This document shows, one piece after another, positions 4,664-24,300 of a DNA stretch of 32,413 nucleotides. A model generated the notes under the pieces. The model searched no databases. It was not told the origin of the DNA and saw only the letters and a program-made list of their open reading frames with translations. The stretch's first letter is position 1; each line of letters opens with the position of its first letter. The translations under genes were made by a program, and so were the position numbers. Source of the DNA: Phycisphaerae bacterium (GTDB lineage: Bacteria; Planctomycetota; Phycisphaerae; Sedimentisphaerales; UBA12454); NCBI GenBank assembly GCA_026386845.1, contig JAPLMW010000075.1, positions 1 through 32,413 of the forward strand, in the 5' to 3' direction.

Positions 4664-5374
4664 TTATTCCGAGTAGCCGAATTTTCCTATAAGTTTTACA
4701 AATCTGCATCCGCAAACAGATTTTGTTTTCAAACCATCGACGGTTTTCTCAATAACCACAAGCTCCTGTACGTAATCGGCTCCCAACGGCACTACTGCTA
4801 TGCCGCCTGTCTTTAATTGTTCGAGCAGCGGTTTTGGCATCTGGGGAGTCGCAGCGGTAATTATTATCCTGTCGAATTGCCTCTGTTCAGGCCTGCCCTG
4901 AGCGGATTTATCCTGAGTGAAATCGAAGGAGTCGAAGGGCCAGCCGATAGTCCCGTCGCCTGTATGGAATTTTACATTTGTTATATTCATTTCCGCCAGA
5001 ATCCGCTGTGCGTTTAAAGCAAGATGTTCTATTCTTTCAATTGTATAGACTTCTTTCGCAAGTTTCGCAAGTATCGCGGTCTGATAACCGCTGCCTGTTC
5101 CTATTTCAAGCACTTCGCTATTTTTATCGACTTTCAATTCCTGTGTCATTAAAGCGACAATATACGGCTGGCTTATCGTCTGGCCGCACCCTATTGGCAA
5201 AGGCCCGTCAAAATAAGCCCCGTCGAGACATTCAGCAGGTATAAACTTTTCTCTCGGCACATCGGCCATTACTCTCAAAACAGCAGGGTCTGTTATATCC
5301 CGCTTTTTCAGCTGGACTCGAACCATCGCCTGCCTTTCGGCAGCAAATTTGTCCTTTTCATTTGCCTGCTGCAT
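4664..5374 (-). CDS. pcm: Protein-L-isoaspartate O-methyltransferase with in-frame repeat insertion
   Basis: Pcm methylates isoaspartyl residues of damaged proteins using S-adenosylmethionine. The Rossmann SAM-binding motif VLEIGTGSGYQTAILA and the family motif GQTISQPYIVALMT are clear. Between GDGTIGWP and EQRQFDRIIITAA lies a stretch of about 16 residues (FDSFDFTQDKSAQGRP) that is not expected in the family and coincides with a palindromic repeat; without it the segment reads as a normal Pcm. ATG 5374 is chosen. A TTG at 5410 would crowd the divergent lipoprotein gene, and ATG 5326, with AAAGG upstream, is also possible. Downstream recG follows by 2 bases. Confidence 0.9.
   Translation of the reverse strand: MQQANEKDKFAAERQAMVRVQLKKRDITDPAVLRVMADVPREKFIPAECLDGAYFDGPLPIGCGQTISQPYIVALMTQELKVDKNSEVLEIGTGSGYQTAILAKLAKEVYTIERIEHLALNAQRILAEMNITNVKFHTGDGTIGWPFDSFDFTQDKSAQGRPEQRQFDRIIITAATPQMPKPLLEQLKTGGIAVVPLGADYVQELVVIEKTVDGLKTKSVCGCRFVKLIGKFGYSE
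4895..4940. repeat. 46-bp palindromic element inside pcm
   Basis: The element is bounded by GCCCT and AGGGC and contains GAAGGAGTCGAAGGGC. It matches another 46-bp element at 23979-24024 inside dtd at 36 of 46 positions, with identical ends and length. It adds 48 bp in frame (46 plus a GCC-like flank). It has the look of the REP-like TCCTGAGC/GTCGAAGG palindromes seen in many bacterial genomes. Confidence 0.8.
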
Positions 5375-5383
5375 AACTATAAT
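5355..5383 (+). promoter_or_regulatory. Candidate promoter for lipoprotein-bioA-bioD-nadB
   Basis: TATAAT at 5378-5383 is preceded, with a 17-base gap, by TTTTCA at 5355-5360, a weak -35 match. It lies about 50 bases before the lipoprotein ATG and at the start of the divergent pcm gene. Confidence 0.4.
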
Positions 5384-5433
5384 AATTGCGTTATTAAACG
5401 CGTTTTGCAAATCAATTTTTAAGGAGATATATT

Positions 5434-9555: not shown

Positions 9556-10991
9556 AGACCGTCTTCAGCCGTGGGCATAGCCGGCATTGCGTCCGGCAAA
9601 ACCGGTACCTTCTCTATTACCCGCATCGTTTTCCACTTGCCCGTAAGAAATCGCAGTAGAAAAAGAATCGCCAGAGCACAAACATAACCTGTCAGCGCCA
9701 GCCACGCCACATAGAGTCTTGCCCTGCCCTGCAGAAATGTTACAGCCGCCCAGCTCGGAATAACCATAATAAGCCAGTTAAGCACAATTGAAACATACAT
9801 CACAAATTTCGTATCGCCCGCCCCCTTGAGCGCCGCTGAAAAAACTATATTGCCGGTATCAAAAATGCAGTAAAAACTGACAAAGTAAAGCAGTGTTTTC
9901 GCTATCGGCCGCATCGCATCCATCTGTTCTGCCGAAGCTCTTGCCTCGAACGGCAGCATAAACACATTTGGGAAAAGCCAGTAGCCCGCAGCCACAGCAA
10001 TCATATAACCGAAAGTCAGCTTGGCCGCTGTATAAGTTGTCTTCTGAGCGATTTGCGGCTTATCCGCTCCCAGTGCCCTGCCGACAAGCACGCTTGTCGC
10101 CATACCGAAACCTATCATAGGCATAAATGAAAGTGTATTAATCTGAAGAACCATCGACGAGGCGGCAAAAGACACCGCGTCAATTCTGCCTACGAAAACC
10201 ACAAAAAGCGTAAAGCCCAGTATGTCGAGCATAAACTGTACGCCGCTCGGAATACCGAATTTCATAAGTCTGCCGAAAAGTTCTCTGTCAAAAGTATAAT
10301 TTGTGGTGCAGAAACTTTTGCGGTGAGCCGGCAATAAAAAGATGACAAAATAAATTACACAGGTTACAACACTGGCGATAACGGTTGCTATCGCCGCCCC
10401 GCCGATACCCCATTTCGGAAAACCGAATTTTCCGAAAATCATCGCGTAATCCAGCACGGCATTTATGACTGTTTTGACAACATTGACCCATAAAACGGTC
10501 CATGTTTTCCCCCTGCCTGTCAGAAAACAGGAAAGCGAAGCGTCAACAATTCCCGGCATCGACCCTATCAGCAAAATTTTGAAATATACAAGCTCGTAAT
10601 TGGCTATTGCCGGCTCGTGACCGACAAGGGCGATAAGGGGCTTGGCAAACAGAGCGATTGCGGCCATTATCAGCCCGGCGGCGACGGAAAAATAAATGCT
10701 CTGCCAGACGGCAGGCCCGATTCTTTCTTTCCTCTTTGCCCCGTCGTACTGCGAGACAAACGTATTCGCATAGGTAGCTGTGCCGAGAAAGAAGCTGAAG
10801 AATACAAAGCTGAGAATTCCGCCCAGCATCGCCGCGCTCATCGCGTCGCGGTCGTACCACATCAAAAAAACCCTGTCCACAAACATCTGAAGCGTCATCG
10901 CAGAGGTGCTCAAAATCAGCGGAAATGCGATTTTCAGAACCTCTGCCGATCCGCCTTCATTTATCACAATTTTTTCAGATTTTTCTTTCAT
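9552..10991 (-). CDS. MATE family multidrug/cation exporter
   Basis: This 479-aa polytopic membrane protein has about 12 hydrophobic segments. Its N-terminal pattern is typical of MATE (NorM/DinF-like) transporters: LKIAFPLILSTSAMTLQMFVDRVFL, then FVSQYDGA and, in the second half, KFGIPSGVQFMLDILGF and MIGFGMATSVLVGRALGA. Such proteins export drugs or metabolites using Na+ or H+ gradients. The substrate cannot be told. It is transcribed alone and diverges from the flavoprotein gene with 51 bases between the start codons. Its stop overlaps the end of nadB. Confidence 0.9.
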   Translation of the reverse strand: MKEKSEKIVINEGGSAEVLKIAFPLILSTSAMTLQMFVDRVFLMWYDRDAMSAAMLGGILSFVFFSFFLGTATYANTFVSQYDGAKRKERIGPAVWQSIYFSVAAGLIMAAIALFAKPLIALVGHEPAIANYELVYFKILLIGSMPGIVDASLSCFLTGRGKTWTVLWVNVVKTVINAVLDYAMIFGKFGFPKWGIGGAAIATVIASVVTCVIYFVIFLLPAHRKSFCTTNYTFDRELFGRLMKFGIPSGVQFMLDILGFTLFVVFVGRIDAVSFAASSMVLQINTLSFMPMIGFGMATSVLVGRALGADKPQIAQKTTYTAAKLTFGYMIAVAAGYWLFPNVFMLPFEARASAEQMDAMRPIAKTLLYFVSFYCIFDTGNIVFSAALKGAGDTKFVMYVSIVLNWLIMVIPSWAAVTFLQGRARLYVAWLALTGYVCALAILFLLRFLTGKWKTMRVIEKVPVLPDAMPAMPTAEDGL

Positions 10992-11042
10992 TGTTTTAAG
11001 CCGGTTATGTTAAACTCAAGCCTACTTTTTTTCAAAACAAAT

Positions 11043-12350
11043 ATGATTGAAACAGATTTATGTATAATTGGTGCAGGGCCGGCAGGTATGATGGCAGCTA
11101 TTGCCGCAGCCGAACGCTCAGGAAAAATTATAATTCTTGAGTCGAACACAACCGCGGGACGTAAACTTCTGCTGACCGGCCGGGGTAGATGTAATCTTAC
11201 GCATACAGGTTCAGCCGACGAGATTATAAAGGCATTCAAACCCTTTGACAGATTTGTTCGCCACTGTATCCACGAATTCTCGCCGGCCGACCTGATAAAA
11301 TTCTTCGCACATCGCGGCCTTGAAACAGTCGAAGAACCTGACGGCTGTGTATTTCCAAAAACTCAACGTTCAAGTGATATCAAGCAAATATTGACTGAAG
11401 AACTGAAAAAACCTGACATCAGAATACTTTATGGCAAAAAAGTTCAATCGGTCAGAAAGGACGGAGATATTTTTGTAATCCTGTCGGAAAAATTTGAAAT
11501 CTCGGCAAAGTCTCTGATAATCGCCGCCGGCGGCGCAAGCTGGCCGCAGACAGGCTCAACCGGCGACGGCTACAGATTCGCTGAAAGTCTCGGCCACAAC
11601 ATCATAAAACCGCTTGCAGCACTTGTGCCGCTGATTACGGCGGAGAAGTTTTGCTCTGCCCTTGCAGGTGTAGGTGTTCAAAATGTTTTTATATCCTGCA
11701 AAATAAACGGTAAGAAAATATCCTCATCCGGCCCAATGATTTTCACGCATAACGGCATTGGCGGCCCGGCTGTACTTGACCTGAGCCGATTTATCACAGA
11801 CCGGCTTGGCGAAAAACGCAGCGTTGACCCCGTTAGAGACAAGGCATCAAAGATGCCTGACGGCTGCCAAAGGCGGCCTGTCTCTAATGGGGTCGAACTG
11901 TCGATAGACCTGCTGCCGGACATAACACACAAGCAGCTTGATAAAAAACTTACAGAAGACCTTATGCAATACCCAAAAAGAAATATCGCCTCGACAATCG
12001 CTCAATATACGCCAAAAGCTCTTGCGGAAATTATATGCAGCAACTATAAGTTTACGGATATCATTGCAGGACAATTTACGAAAAAAGACAGAATGACGCT
12101 TATTGAAACGCTGAAAAACTTCAAACTTACGGCGGTATCTGCCGACTTGCTTGAAAAAGCCACGGTAACCAGAGGCGGCATCGATACCTTGCAAATCGAC
12201 CGTAAAACTATGCAGTCAAAACTGTGCGGCCGTCTGTTTTTTGCCGGCGAAGTAATCAATATTGACGGCCCCTGCGGCGGATATAACCTGCAATTCGCTT
12301 TTTCCAGCGGTTTTCTGGCTGGTAAATCTGCCGTTGAGTCATTAAAATAA
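11043..12350 (+). CDS. HI0933-type NAD(P)/FAD-dependent oxidoreductase with in-frame repeat insertion
   Basis: From ATG 11043 the protein is 435 aa. It starts directly with the FAD-binding loop ([18 protein letters not shown]) and has AGRKLLLTGRGRCNLTH, PEDG-like EEPDGCVFPKTQRSSD and the C-terminal FFAGEVINIDGPCGGYNLQFAFSSG, all diagnostic of the HI0933/BaiN-like flavoprotein family. A longer open frame extends back to 10617 but lies over the MATE gene. At about residues 263-285 the stretch DPVRDKASKMPDG...RPVSNGV is foreign and coincides with a 69-bp palindrome. Removing it gives 412 aa, near the family norm. The reaction is unknown. arsC follows 44 bases downstream. Confidence 0.9.
   Translation: MIETDLCIIGAGPAGMMAAIAAAERSGKIIILESNTTAGRKLLLTGRGRCNLTHTGSADEIIKAFKPFDRFVRHCIHEFSPADLIKFFAHRGLETVEEPDGCVFPKTQRSSDIKQILTEELKKPDIRILYGKKVQSVRKDGDIFVILSEKFEISAKSLIIAAGGASWPQTGSTGDGYRFAESLGHNIIKPLAALVPLITAEKFCSALAGVGVQNVFISCKINGKKISSSGPMIFTHNGIGGPAVLDLSRFITDRLGEKRSVDPVRDKASKMPDGCQRRPVSNGVELSIDLLPDITHKQLDKKLTEDLMQYPKRNIASTIAQYTPKALAEIICSNYKFTDIIAGQFTKKDRMTLIETLKNFKLTAVSADLLEKATVTRGGIDTLQIDRKTMQSKLCGRLFFAGEVINIDGPCGGYNLQFAFSSGFLAGKSAVESLK
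11826..11894. repeat. 69-bp in-frame palindromic element in the flavoprotein gene
   Basis: The ends GACCCCGTTAGAGACA and TGTCTCTAATGGGGTC are nearly perfect inverted repeats. Inside are two smaller hairpins, GGCATC/GATGCC and GGCTGCC/GGCGGCC. The length is exactly 23 codons. A copy at 24047-24113 in dtd shares the core GTTAGAGACAAGGCATCA and is read in the same frame. Confidence 0.85.
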
Positions 12351-22353: not shown

Positions 22354-23562
22354 TTAATTTACCGATAATTTCGCGAATTTAAGTTTTCCGGCTCGGACAA
22401 TCATTCCATTTGCCGGCGTTATTGCTTTATTCGGGTCTGTAATTTTTTCGCCGTTTATTGTCAATCCGCCGCCGGCGATAAGTCTTTTCGCTTCTCCGCC
22501 GCTTGCGACAAGTTTGCAGGCCGAAAGAAGTTTCGCCGCCGTTATGGATTCGCCTGATATTTTAACTTCCGGCATATCCTGCGGTATTTGTTTTTGAGCG
22601 AAGACTTTCTCGAATTCCGCAGCGGCAGCCTCGCCCGTAGCCTCATCGTAAAATTGCTTTATAATCGTCTTGCCCAAAAGCACCTTTGCCTGTTTCGGAT
22701 GCGTTTTTTGTGGATTGACAAGCTCTTTAATCTTGTCGGCAGGTATTTCGGTCAGCAGCGTAAAATAGTTTTCCATCATATCGTCGCTTATGCTCATTAC
22801 TTTGCCGAACATATTCTTTGGCTCATCGGTAACGCCGATGTAATTACCTTTCGATTTGCTCATTTTCTCTTTGCCGTCAAGCCCGACGAGTATCGGCATT
22901 GTAATTACAATCTGTGCTTTTTGGCCGTTAATCCTTTGCAAATCCCTTCCGACAAGGTTATTGAATGTCTGGTCAGTCCCGCCAAGTTCAACATCCGCCT
23001 TTACCATAACAGAATCATATCCCTGCATAAGCGGATATAGAAATTCGTGCATACTAATCGCATCACCTGCTTTATAGCGGATTGCAAAAGTATCCCGTTC
23101 AAGCATTCTCGCAACAGTTGTTGAACTGGTAAGTTTTATAATATCGGCAAGCCTCAAATCCGCCAGCCATTTGCTGTTCGGCCGGACTTCAAATTTCTCT
23201 TTTGATGTATCAAGGACTTTGCCTGCCTGGGCGATATAAGTCTTTGCGTTTTTTTCAATCTGTTCGGGCGAGAGCATTGGTCTTGTGGTATTCTGCCCGG
23301 TCGGGTCGCCGATGCGGGCTGTATAATCGCCTATAATCAGGACGGCCTTATGTCCCATATCCTGAAACTGCCTCATTTTTCGCATAACAACGGTATGCCC
23401 AAGATGAATATCCGGCGCGGTAGGGTCCATACCGAGTTTGACGCGGAGCTGTCGTTTACTCTTCGCCGCCTCGGCAAGCCGCTCGGCAAGTTCATTCTCG
23501 TTGAATATCTCAACCGTCCCGCGTTTAAGCTGCTCAACTTGCTCTTTTATGTTTTCAGACAT
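22354..23562 (-). CDS. tyrS: Tyrosyl-tRNA synthetase
   Basis: TyrS charges tRNA-Tyr. The class I signatures are present: HLGH in DIHLGHTVVMRKMRQF, and KMSKSKGN. The tyrosine-binding DVELGGTDQTFN is present. The C-terminus carries an S4-type RNA-binding domain (LVASGGEAKRLIAGGGLTING). Length 402 aa is normal. It is co-directional with the downstream unknown gene. Inverted repeats of CCCTCACACC lie immediately upstream. Confidence 0.95.
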   Translation of the reverse strand: MSENIKEQVEQLKRGTVEIFNENELAERLAEAAKSKRQLRVKLGMDPTAPDIHLGHTVVMRKMRQFQDMGHKAVLIIGDYTARIGDPTGQNTTRPMLSPEQIEKNAKTYIAQAGKVLDTSKEKFEVRPNSKWLADLRLADIIKLTSSTTVARMLERDTFAIRYKAGDAISMHEFLYPLMQGYDSVMVKADVELGGTDQTFNNLVGRDLQRINGQKAQIVITMPILVGLDGKEKMSKSKGNYIGVTDEPKNMFGKVMSISDDMMENYFTLLTEIPADKIKELVNPQKTHPKQAKVLLGKTIIKQFYDEATGEAAAAEFEKVFAQKQIPQDMPEVKISGESITAAKLLSACKLVASGGEAKRLIAGGGLTINGEKITDPNKAITPANGMIVRAGKLKFAKLSVN

Positions 23563-23565
23563 TTA

Positions 23566-23668
23566 CCCTCACACCAAATATGATAGTTTTAAACTTTGTA
23601 TTTTCGATAAAATAATTCCATTTTTCCATTAAATATTTTTCCCTCACCAACATAATTTGGTGTGAGGG
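23566..23668. repeat. Inverted repeat upstream of tyrS
   Basis: CCCTCACACCAAAT (23566-23579) is the exact reverse complement of ATTTGGTGTGAGGG (23655-23668), 75 bases apart. A second CCCTCACCAA (23641-23650) can pair with the same right arm. It starts 4 bases before the tyrS ATG on the minus strand. It may be a small mobile palindrome or a leader hairpin. Confidence 0.65.
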
Positions 23669-23733
23669 TGAGCCTCTAAAAGGAAAGCATTTTAATCCAA
23701 GACCTGTCTTCAATCAACGGAAATGATTAAGGT

Positions 23734-24300
23734 TTAAAATTGTCTTTTACTGTCTAAAAGAAAATTGATTGGTCCGTCATTAGCTGCCGTAACATCCATA
23801 TACGCTGCAAAAACTCCTGTTTGCACCTCAAGCCCTTCGGCTTTTACAAGCTCAACTACTTTTTTATATAGTTTCTCCGCAATATCCGGCTGGGCGGCCA
23901 AATCGAAGCCCGGCCTTCTGCCTTTTCGGCAGTCCCCGAAAAGCGTAAAATTGCTGATTACAAGTATCTGCCCCGCCTGCCCTGAGCCGACCTGTCCTGA
24001 GCTTTGCCGAAGGAGTCGAAGGGCCGTGTCTTTTACGCTTAAATTCATCCTGTTAGAGACAGGTCGTCCTTGACGACCGTCAGGCATCTCTGATGCCTTG
24101 TCTCTAACAGGATTCATTTTGCCCTCGCTGTCGGCAAAGATTCGAAGATTGACAATCTTATCGGCAATAAATACAGCGTCTGTTTCATCGTCGTCCCTGC
24201 CCACGCCAAGATAAACAAGCAGCCCTTTGCCTATCTGGCCGATTATGCCGCCGTTTACAGATACCTGTGCGTTTTTTACTCTTTGAACTATCGCTCGCAT
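23734..24300 (-). CDS. dtd: D-aminoacyl-tRNA deacylase with two in-frame repeat insertions
   Basis: Dtd removes D-amino acids wrongly attached to tRNAs. From ATG 24300 the protein (188 aa) starts MRAIVQRVKNAQVSV, the family N-terminus; an upstream frame to 24423 looks non-coding. It has SNFTLFGD and NDGPINFLL, typical Dtd motifs. Two foreign stretches interrupt it. One is 23 residues, PVRDKASEMPDG...PVSNRMN, between EGKMN and LSV. The other is 16 residues, LRLLRQSSGQVGSGQA, between KDTA and GQILV. Removing both gives 149 aa, the usual length. Both map to palindromic elements. Whether the enzyme tolerates these loops is unknown. Confidence 0.93.
   Translation of the reverse strand: MRAIVQRVKNAQVSVNGGIIGQIGKGLLVYLGVGRDDDETDAVFIADKIVNLRIFADSEGKMNPVRDKASEMPDGRQGRPVSNRMNLSVKDTALRLLRQSSGQVGSGQAGQILVISNFTLFGDCRKGRRPGFDLAAQPDIAEKLYKKVVELVKAEGLEVQTGVFAAYMDVTAANDGPINFLLDSKRQF
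23979..24024. repeat. 46-bp palindromic element inside dtd
   Basis: It begins GCCCTGAGC and ends GAAGGAGTCGAAGGGC, with GCCCT/AGGGC ends, and has the same length and ends as the element at 4895-4940 in pcm (36 of 46 identical). Read on the gene strand, it is in a different frame from the pcm copy. Confidence 0.8.
24043..24117. repeat. 69-bp coding palindromic element inside dtd with 6-bp flanking repeats
   Basis: Palindromic ends ATCCTGTTAGAGACA and TGTCTCTAACAGGAT (24047-24113) enclose two hairpins. ATTCAT occurs at 24043-24048 and again 69 bases later at 24112-24117, consistent with a target duplication. It matches the element at 11826-11894. Confidence 0.85.

Follow-up and report, generated by a model that had tools for sequence, protein, structure and literature searches.

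A dtd gene with two in-frame insertions

The window analysed here is a stretch of 32,413 nucleotides from a Phycisphaerae bacterium (contig JAPLMW010000075.1). It contains a gene for D-aminoacyl-tRNA deacylase (dtd) that carries two insertions, insert 1 and insert 2, each belonging to a repeat found elsewhere in the genome (element 1 and element 2, respectively). The features that concern us are as follows.

23734..24300, minus strand: dtd (D-aminoacyl-tRNA deacylase) coding sequence, 188 aa, with two in-frame insertions; PF02580 is split into two stretches
23974..24021, minus strand: element 2 insertion, 48 bp, read as LRLLRQSSGQVGSGQA; absent from orthologues, with relatives in the genome
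24044..24047, no strand: copy of the target duplication, TTCA on the plus strand (TGAA on the minus strand); the matching flank
24048..24112, minus strand: element 1 in dtd, a 65-bp palindrome read as PVRDKASEMPDGRQGRPVSNR, with a three-way-junction (Y-shaped) fold
24113..24116, no strand: copy of the target duplication, TTCA on the plus strand (TGAA on the minus strand); present once in the empty site of orthologues
11828..11892, plus strand: second element 1 copy, in frame inside an HI0933-like flavoprotein gene (10617-12350, plus strand)
4891..4941, minus strand: second element 2 copy, of similar double form, in frame in pcm (4664-5410, minus strand; PF01135); repeat family D5, L065

In translation, the dtd frame is stop-free through all 188 codons and includes 23 additional residues from insert 1 and 16 from insert 2. 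Matches to dtd occur in 117 other genomes of the order (the match in G036 and G037 being slightly longer), and we aligned a subset of them, giving 31 proteins with that of the window. Both inserts are absent from all 30 orthologues, each of 149 residues and eight of them from the same family, and removal of the 23 and 16 residues places the window's Dtd in the exact sequence register of these eight, with the junctions KMN[23 aa]LSV and KDT[16 aa]AGQ or equivalent. The catalytic and conserved motifs are intact, frameshifts and stops are absent, and the window's own genome (95.8% complete) has a single matching locus, with no other dtd copy found. An earlier note on this DNA had proposed that two independent insertions are read through in a frame of 188 codons and that the usual Dtd size of 149 residues remains without them, which the open frame, the empty sites and the length of the orthologues bear out; a close orthologue with both segments is not among the 30 aligned. 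Its length of 46 bp for insert 2 needs correction to a net 48 bp.

An AlphaFold model of the 188-residue protein, built on a shallow alignment (31 sequences), reaches a mean pLDDT of 80.5 and a pTM of 0.77, and its top Foldseek matches are DTD structures from Aquifex and E. coli (2dbo/1jke; TM to target of 0.91 and 0.89). Residues 61-69 have a pLDDT below 50, blocks of insert 1 average 46-71, and insert 2 is modelled in part as a helix. Such modelling had been proposed as a check on the inserts: the DTD fold is retained and insert 1 is of low confidence, consistent with tolerated loops, and in the model both inserts look like tolerated extra loops. Insert 1 is presumably translated as 23 residues, and the enzyme is probably active with the inserts in place.

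Element 1 has paired ends and a 4-bp target duplication

Element 1 has the TIR YCCCGTTAGARAC...GTYTCTAACGGGR and folds into a 13-bp outer stem with an outer T-A pair and two 7-bp hairpins, the stem being extended by flanking pairs. As single-stranded DNA, the dtd copy folds with z = -10.6, and the copy at 11828-11892 adopts the same fold (z = -8.9). The pairing is maintained by compensatory changes: among 22 copies, both sides have changed in 12 of 27 pairs (5.3 expected; 0 of 500 shuffles), and the dtd copy has a double change of its own, C-G to T-A, in the third pair. In the outer stem, 98.3% of cells are paired, as in the TIRs of a MITE. Rfam gave no match to the window.

On the coding strand, dtd reads AAA-ATGAAT-(CCTGTTAGAGACA...TGTCTCTAACAGG)-ATGAAT-TTA at insert 1, where orthologues whose DNA we saw have AA(A/G)-ATG-AA(T/C), and the 23-residue peptide is PVRDKASEMPDGRQGRPVSNRMN. 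The 6-base repeat that had been noticed around the insert is present (ATTCAT at 24043-24048 and 24112-24117), but the true duplication is 4 bp. Across 58 family and 109 other copies, positions 2-5 of the flanking 6-mers match in 79-95% and positions 1 and 6 in only 40-66%, whereas the last left and first right flanking bases, the outermost Y/R pair, are complementary in 95-98%. We therefore replaced a 6-bp duplication (our initial candidate) with one of 4 bp (TTCA/TGAA, consensus YNNR) around an element of 65 bp with the ends Y...R. Flanks match at 4.59 of 6 bases in the 58 family copies, compared to 2.55 ± 0.16 when shuffled, and at 4.34 compared to 2.64 ± 0.10 in the 109 copies across phyla; with the empty site in dtd orthologues, this is the target site duplication of a MITE. 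Because 65 + 4 = 69 bp corresponds to 23 codons, the dtd frame is kept.

Insert 2 is a different repeat

Insert 2 is an independent insertion of a different, common REP-like repeat. In dtd it is an apparent nested doublet of the unit CCTTCGAC..GCTCAGGACAGG, to which the genome has at least 40 matches, full or partial, many of them intergenic; several intergenic single units have short direct repeats on both sides. Both inserts had been described as palindromic, which holds strongly for insert 1 but not clearly for insert 2, whose palindrome is weak and whose fold is no stronger than that of shuffles (z = -1.1).

The window holds other repeats as well. Between tyrS and dtd (23553-23681) lies an inverted repeat, ATTTGGTGTGAGGGT, with 75 nt separating its arms, and leader-like repeats (25040-25146/26790-26896 and 25199-25236/26938-26975, 82-97% alike) lie upstream of two genes for PEP-CTERM-like proteins.

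Element 1 is dispersed and often lies in frame within genes

A BLAST search of the genome with element 1 gave 28 matches at E ≤ 1, about 23 of which are full or partial copies, and a covariance model built from 22 copies found about 36 distinct places; with so many matches, insert 1 is not chance. Over these places the element is 57-107 bp long, dispersed and without a transposase gene inside, as copies of a MITE are. The same model found copies in 7 of 13 same-family genomes and, in another family of the order, weaker relatives; together these come from 22 of 161 genomes.

Inside open frames of at least 120 aa, the window's genome has 23 copies of element 1. The ends of the element are open in two of three phases (PVR[DN]..VSNG and PLET..LTG), and the third meets TAG in the end itself. 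Counting as gene-spanning those copies with at least 30 aa of open frame on both sides, we found lengths divisible by three in 28 of 28 gene-spanning copies of the family compared to 20 of 28 others (p = 0.004), and outside the family in 38 of 40 compared to 41 of 69 (p = 4e-5), a comparison that is partly circular in that any copy that broke the frame would also terminate it, and in that 63, the canonical length, is itself a multiple of three. Its informative part is the length variants: family gene-spanning copies measure 57, 60, 63, 78 or 102 bp, whereas the other copies include lengths of 59, 61, 64, 67, 71 and 107 bp.

Pfam matches put copies within the Dtd, shikimate kinase, DUF711, TsaC/Sua5, AlaRS, HI0933-like flavoprotein, GcvT and PanC domains. 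In RsmD and Lpd the copy lies where the matched domain ends, and in RNase R it lies between domains. In the last of these (L018:1439-1540; G000 C40:12672-12773), a 39-bp palindrome is nested inside the element's first hairpin and the frame remains open. Element 1 also lies inside alaS and rnpA, genes that can hardly be lost.

Several copies stand at particular positions in their proteins. Nine lie directly before a prepilin cleavage motif, ..LTG/FTLVEL with the slash at the cleavage site (including L189, L214, L219, L224, L251 and L286, L014 of the window's own genome and L149 of G004); the glycine usually comes from the element's last codon, and the insert would leave with the leader peptide. 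In 12 copies with exact TIRs the flanking 6-mer starts with ATG, often apparently a start codon of Parcubacteria (including L188, L193, L218, L236, L244, L257, L272 and L282), and the encoded proteins start M-D/N-PVRD..VSNG. In the gene of a PD-(D/E)XK nuclease (L226:4878-7892), two elements of the 51-bp class are apparently in tandem (VNPVRNTTQISVNTTVSNGVNPVRNTKQINVKTT).

Three insertion sites are shared between genomes: rsmD (L020/L141) and rnpA (L017/L144) in the window's genome and G009, and panC (L147/L155) in G009 and G010. Over these pairs, agreement is 68 of 72 positions for the 24 end bases, 82 of 132 for the interior and 464 of 600 for the flanking coding DNA (ends against the flank rate, p about 9e-5). 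The better-kept ends may be a detection bias, since detection needs fairly intact ends; if the difference is real, some constraint other than protein function keeps them.

Exact ends occur across distant phyla

We ran the exact-end pattern CCCGTTAGARACN{27,57}GTYTCTAACGGG on a collection of 84,980 species and obtained matches in at least 105 stretches; a backward control pattern had no match in 12 of the carrier genomes. Among the matches listed are Patescibacteria (several lineages), Omnitrophota, Planctomycetota, Nitrospirota, Cloacimonadota and one Nanoarchaeota bin, with copies in genes for PurL, radical SAM proteins, an amino acid kinase (in the Nanoarchaeota bin), a tRNA methyltransferase, CDC48-like AAA and MraY-like proteins; Rickettsia records are not among them. 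Within 392 Planctomycetota genomes, matches are confined to three, the window's own with 21 exact copies and two more with a single copy apiece, so that the distribution of the element is patchy. Lengths in the exact-TIR set span 51-81 bp, with 51 bp in Omnitrophota and 60 and 63 bp in Parcubacteria, and such lineage-specific classes argue against simple contamination, although nearly all carriers are metagenome bins. One match, in a Marinimicrobium isolate (L232), has no target duplication and was taken as chance. No exact-TIR match was found in 2.9 million viral contigs, and we rejected a virus as the carrier.

The widest reading of this range is plausible, though we stop somewhat short of favouring it: the copies may form one superfamily of protein-coding palindromes, with a common TIR and 4-bp duplication, that passed horizontally among uncultivated prokaryotes of distant phyla, an archaeal bin among them, repeatedly donating short peptides to core enzymes, and whose ends could be constrained at the DNA level even where the insertion is old.

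Origin of the dtd insert

Insert 1 is very probably a non-autonomous, MITE-like transposable element that was inserted in dtd and is read as a tolerated 23-residue loop, insert 2 being independent of it. Element 1 would have entered dtd after the lineage split from its sampled relatives, moved by a transposase acting in trans; an insertion at YNNR would survive selection where both site and phase are tolerant, and the host would then translate the element. Being stop-free in the phase entered and adding a net 69 bp, it would leave dtd open, and the ribosome would read a 23-residue loop. In the stretches examined, most genomes having been read in part, we found no transposase or autonomous partner with element 1 ends. 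Two candidates for the latter, L217 (997 bp) and L206 (1071 bp), are two short ends around ordinary genes, and unpaired ends in two Omnitrophota genomes are short elements or have no pair with a matching duplication.

The mobilizing enzyme could instead be of the Y1/RAYT type, moving the element as a single strand as for REPs rather than by cut and paste. Of 13 same-family genomes, 12 have Y1_Tnp genes, and the elements are rich in hairpins, but the presence of these genes does not track that of copies (G012 has a copy without a Y1_Tnp match, and copies are missing from G005 and G011 despite several Y1_Tnp genes), and element 1 has a 4-bp target duplication, which to our knowledge is not expected of Y1 enzymes; we consider this route unlikely. 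A second possibility, to which we give still less weight, is that the inserts are skipped, by ribosome bypass or by excision from the RNA or peptide, to yield a 149-residue enzyme, with the flanking repeats as take-off and landing sites. Bypassing is known from T4 gene 60 and the byps of yeast mitochondria, and both the strong hairpin between identical ATGAAT repeats and the better conservation of ends than of flanking coding DNA in the three shared insertions would suit it. However, removal or bypass would not require the frame to be open or the length to be divisible by three, yet both are seen, in dtd as in the gene-spanning copies at large, and the flanking repeats are often unequal between the two sides; the absence of an Rfam match in the window also speaks against it. 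Of the 'tolerance or processing' of the loops that the earlier note had suggested, processing is thus not supported, whereas the open frame, the sole dtd copy, the intact motifs and the DTD fold favour structural tolerance. Least probable of all is that dtd has become a pseudogene, or can be spared, and that the inserts reflect its decay: two insertions within one small gene would fit this, but the only dtd copy found has conserved catalytic motifs and no stop or frameshift, and the same element lies in hard-to-lose genes such as alaS and rnpA.

Relation to known repeats and significance

By its ends and duplication, element 1 has the structure of a MITE: it is short, with TIRs, a target duplication, no gene of its own and many copies, but it is unusually compatible with coding sequence. 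REPs (PMC3733652) are also small palindromes in many copies, and element 2 resembles them, but they are 20-40 bp long, extragenic and tagged by GTAG or CGTC, whereas element 1 is 65 bp long and largely intragenic, with TIRs, a target duplication and ends that lack the tag. ERIC/RU sequences (PMC2759123) are small repeats with open frames that are found in genes, but they are longer (103-168 bp), differ in sequence and are described as mostly intergenic. The end sequences of element 1 are not printed in any paper on such an element among those searched, the sole text match (PMC4223163) being on tomato.

In its behaviour, element 1 appears to work like the Rickettsia palindromic elements (RPEs), to which we compared it by behaviour and length. 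The review PMC10969869, following Ogata et al. (2000, 2002), gives RPEs as about 150 bp long and places nearly half of those of R. conorii inside genes. Element 1 is likewise a small palindrome that has entered many unrelated genes in frame and is apparently translated there, with about half of its copies in genes, but it is shorter (51-81 bp in the exact-TIR set, compared to the about 100-150 bp of RPEs), has clear TIRs and a 4-bp duplication, and is hosted by Planctomycetota, Omnitrophota, Patescibacteria and more. In-frame protein-coding palindromes have been presented as unique to Rickettsia, and the same process elsewhere was in 2024 only 'conceivable' (PMC10969869). Element 1 appears to be a new family of an already known type, the protein-coding palindromes, with an unexpectedly wide host range.

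That insert 1 of dtd is one copy of a mobile family lying in frame in dozens of genes is a larger point than dtd alone, as gene-internal in-frame palindromes at such frequency had so far been reported mainly from Rickettsia and are here found in several phyla. The family accounts for odd inserts seen in annotated enzymes from metagenome genomes, its sharp ends and clear duplication make the question of how it moves testable, and its many before-and-after pairs allow the study of how new segments enter working proteins.
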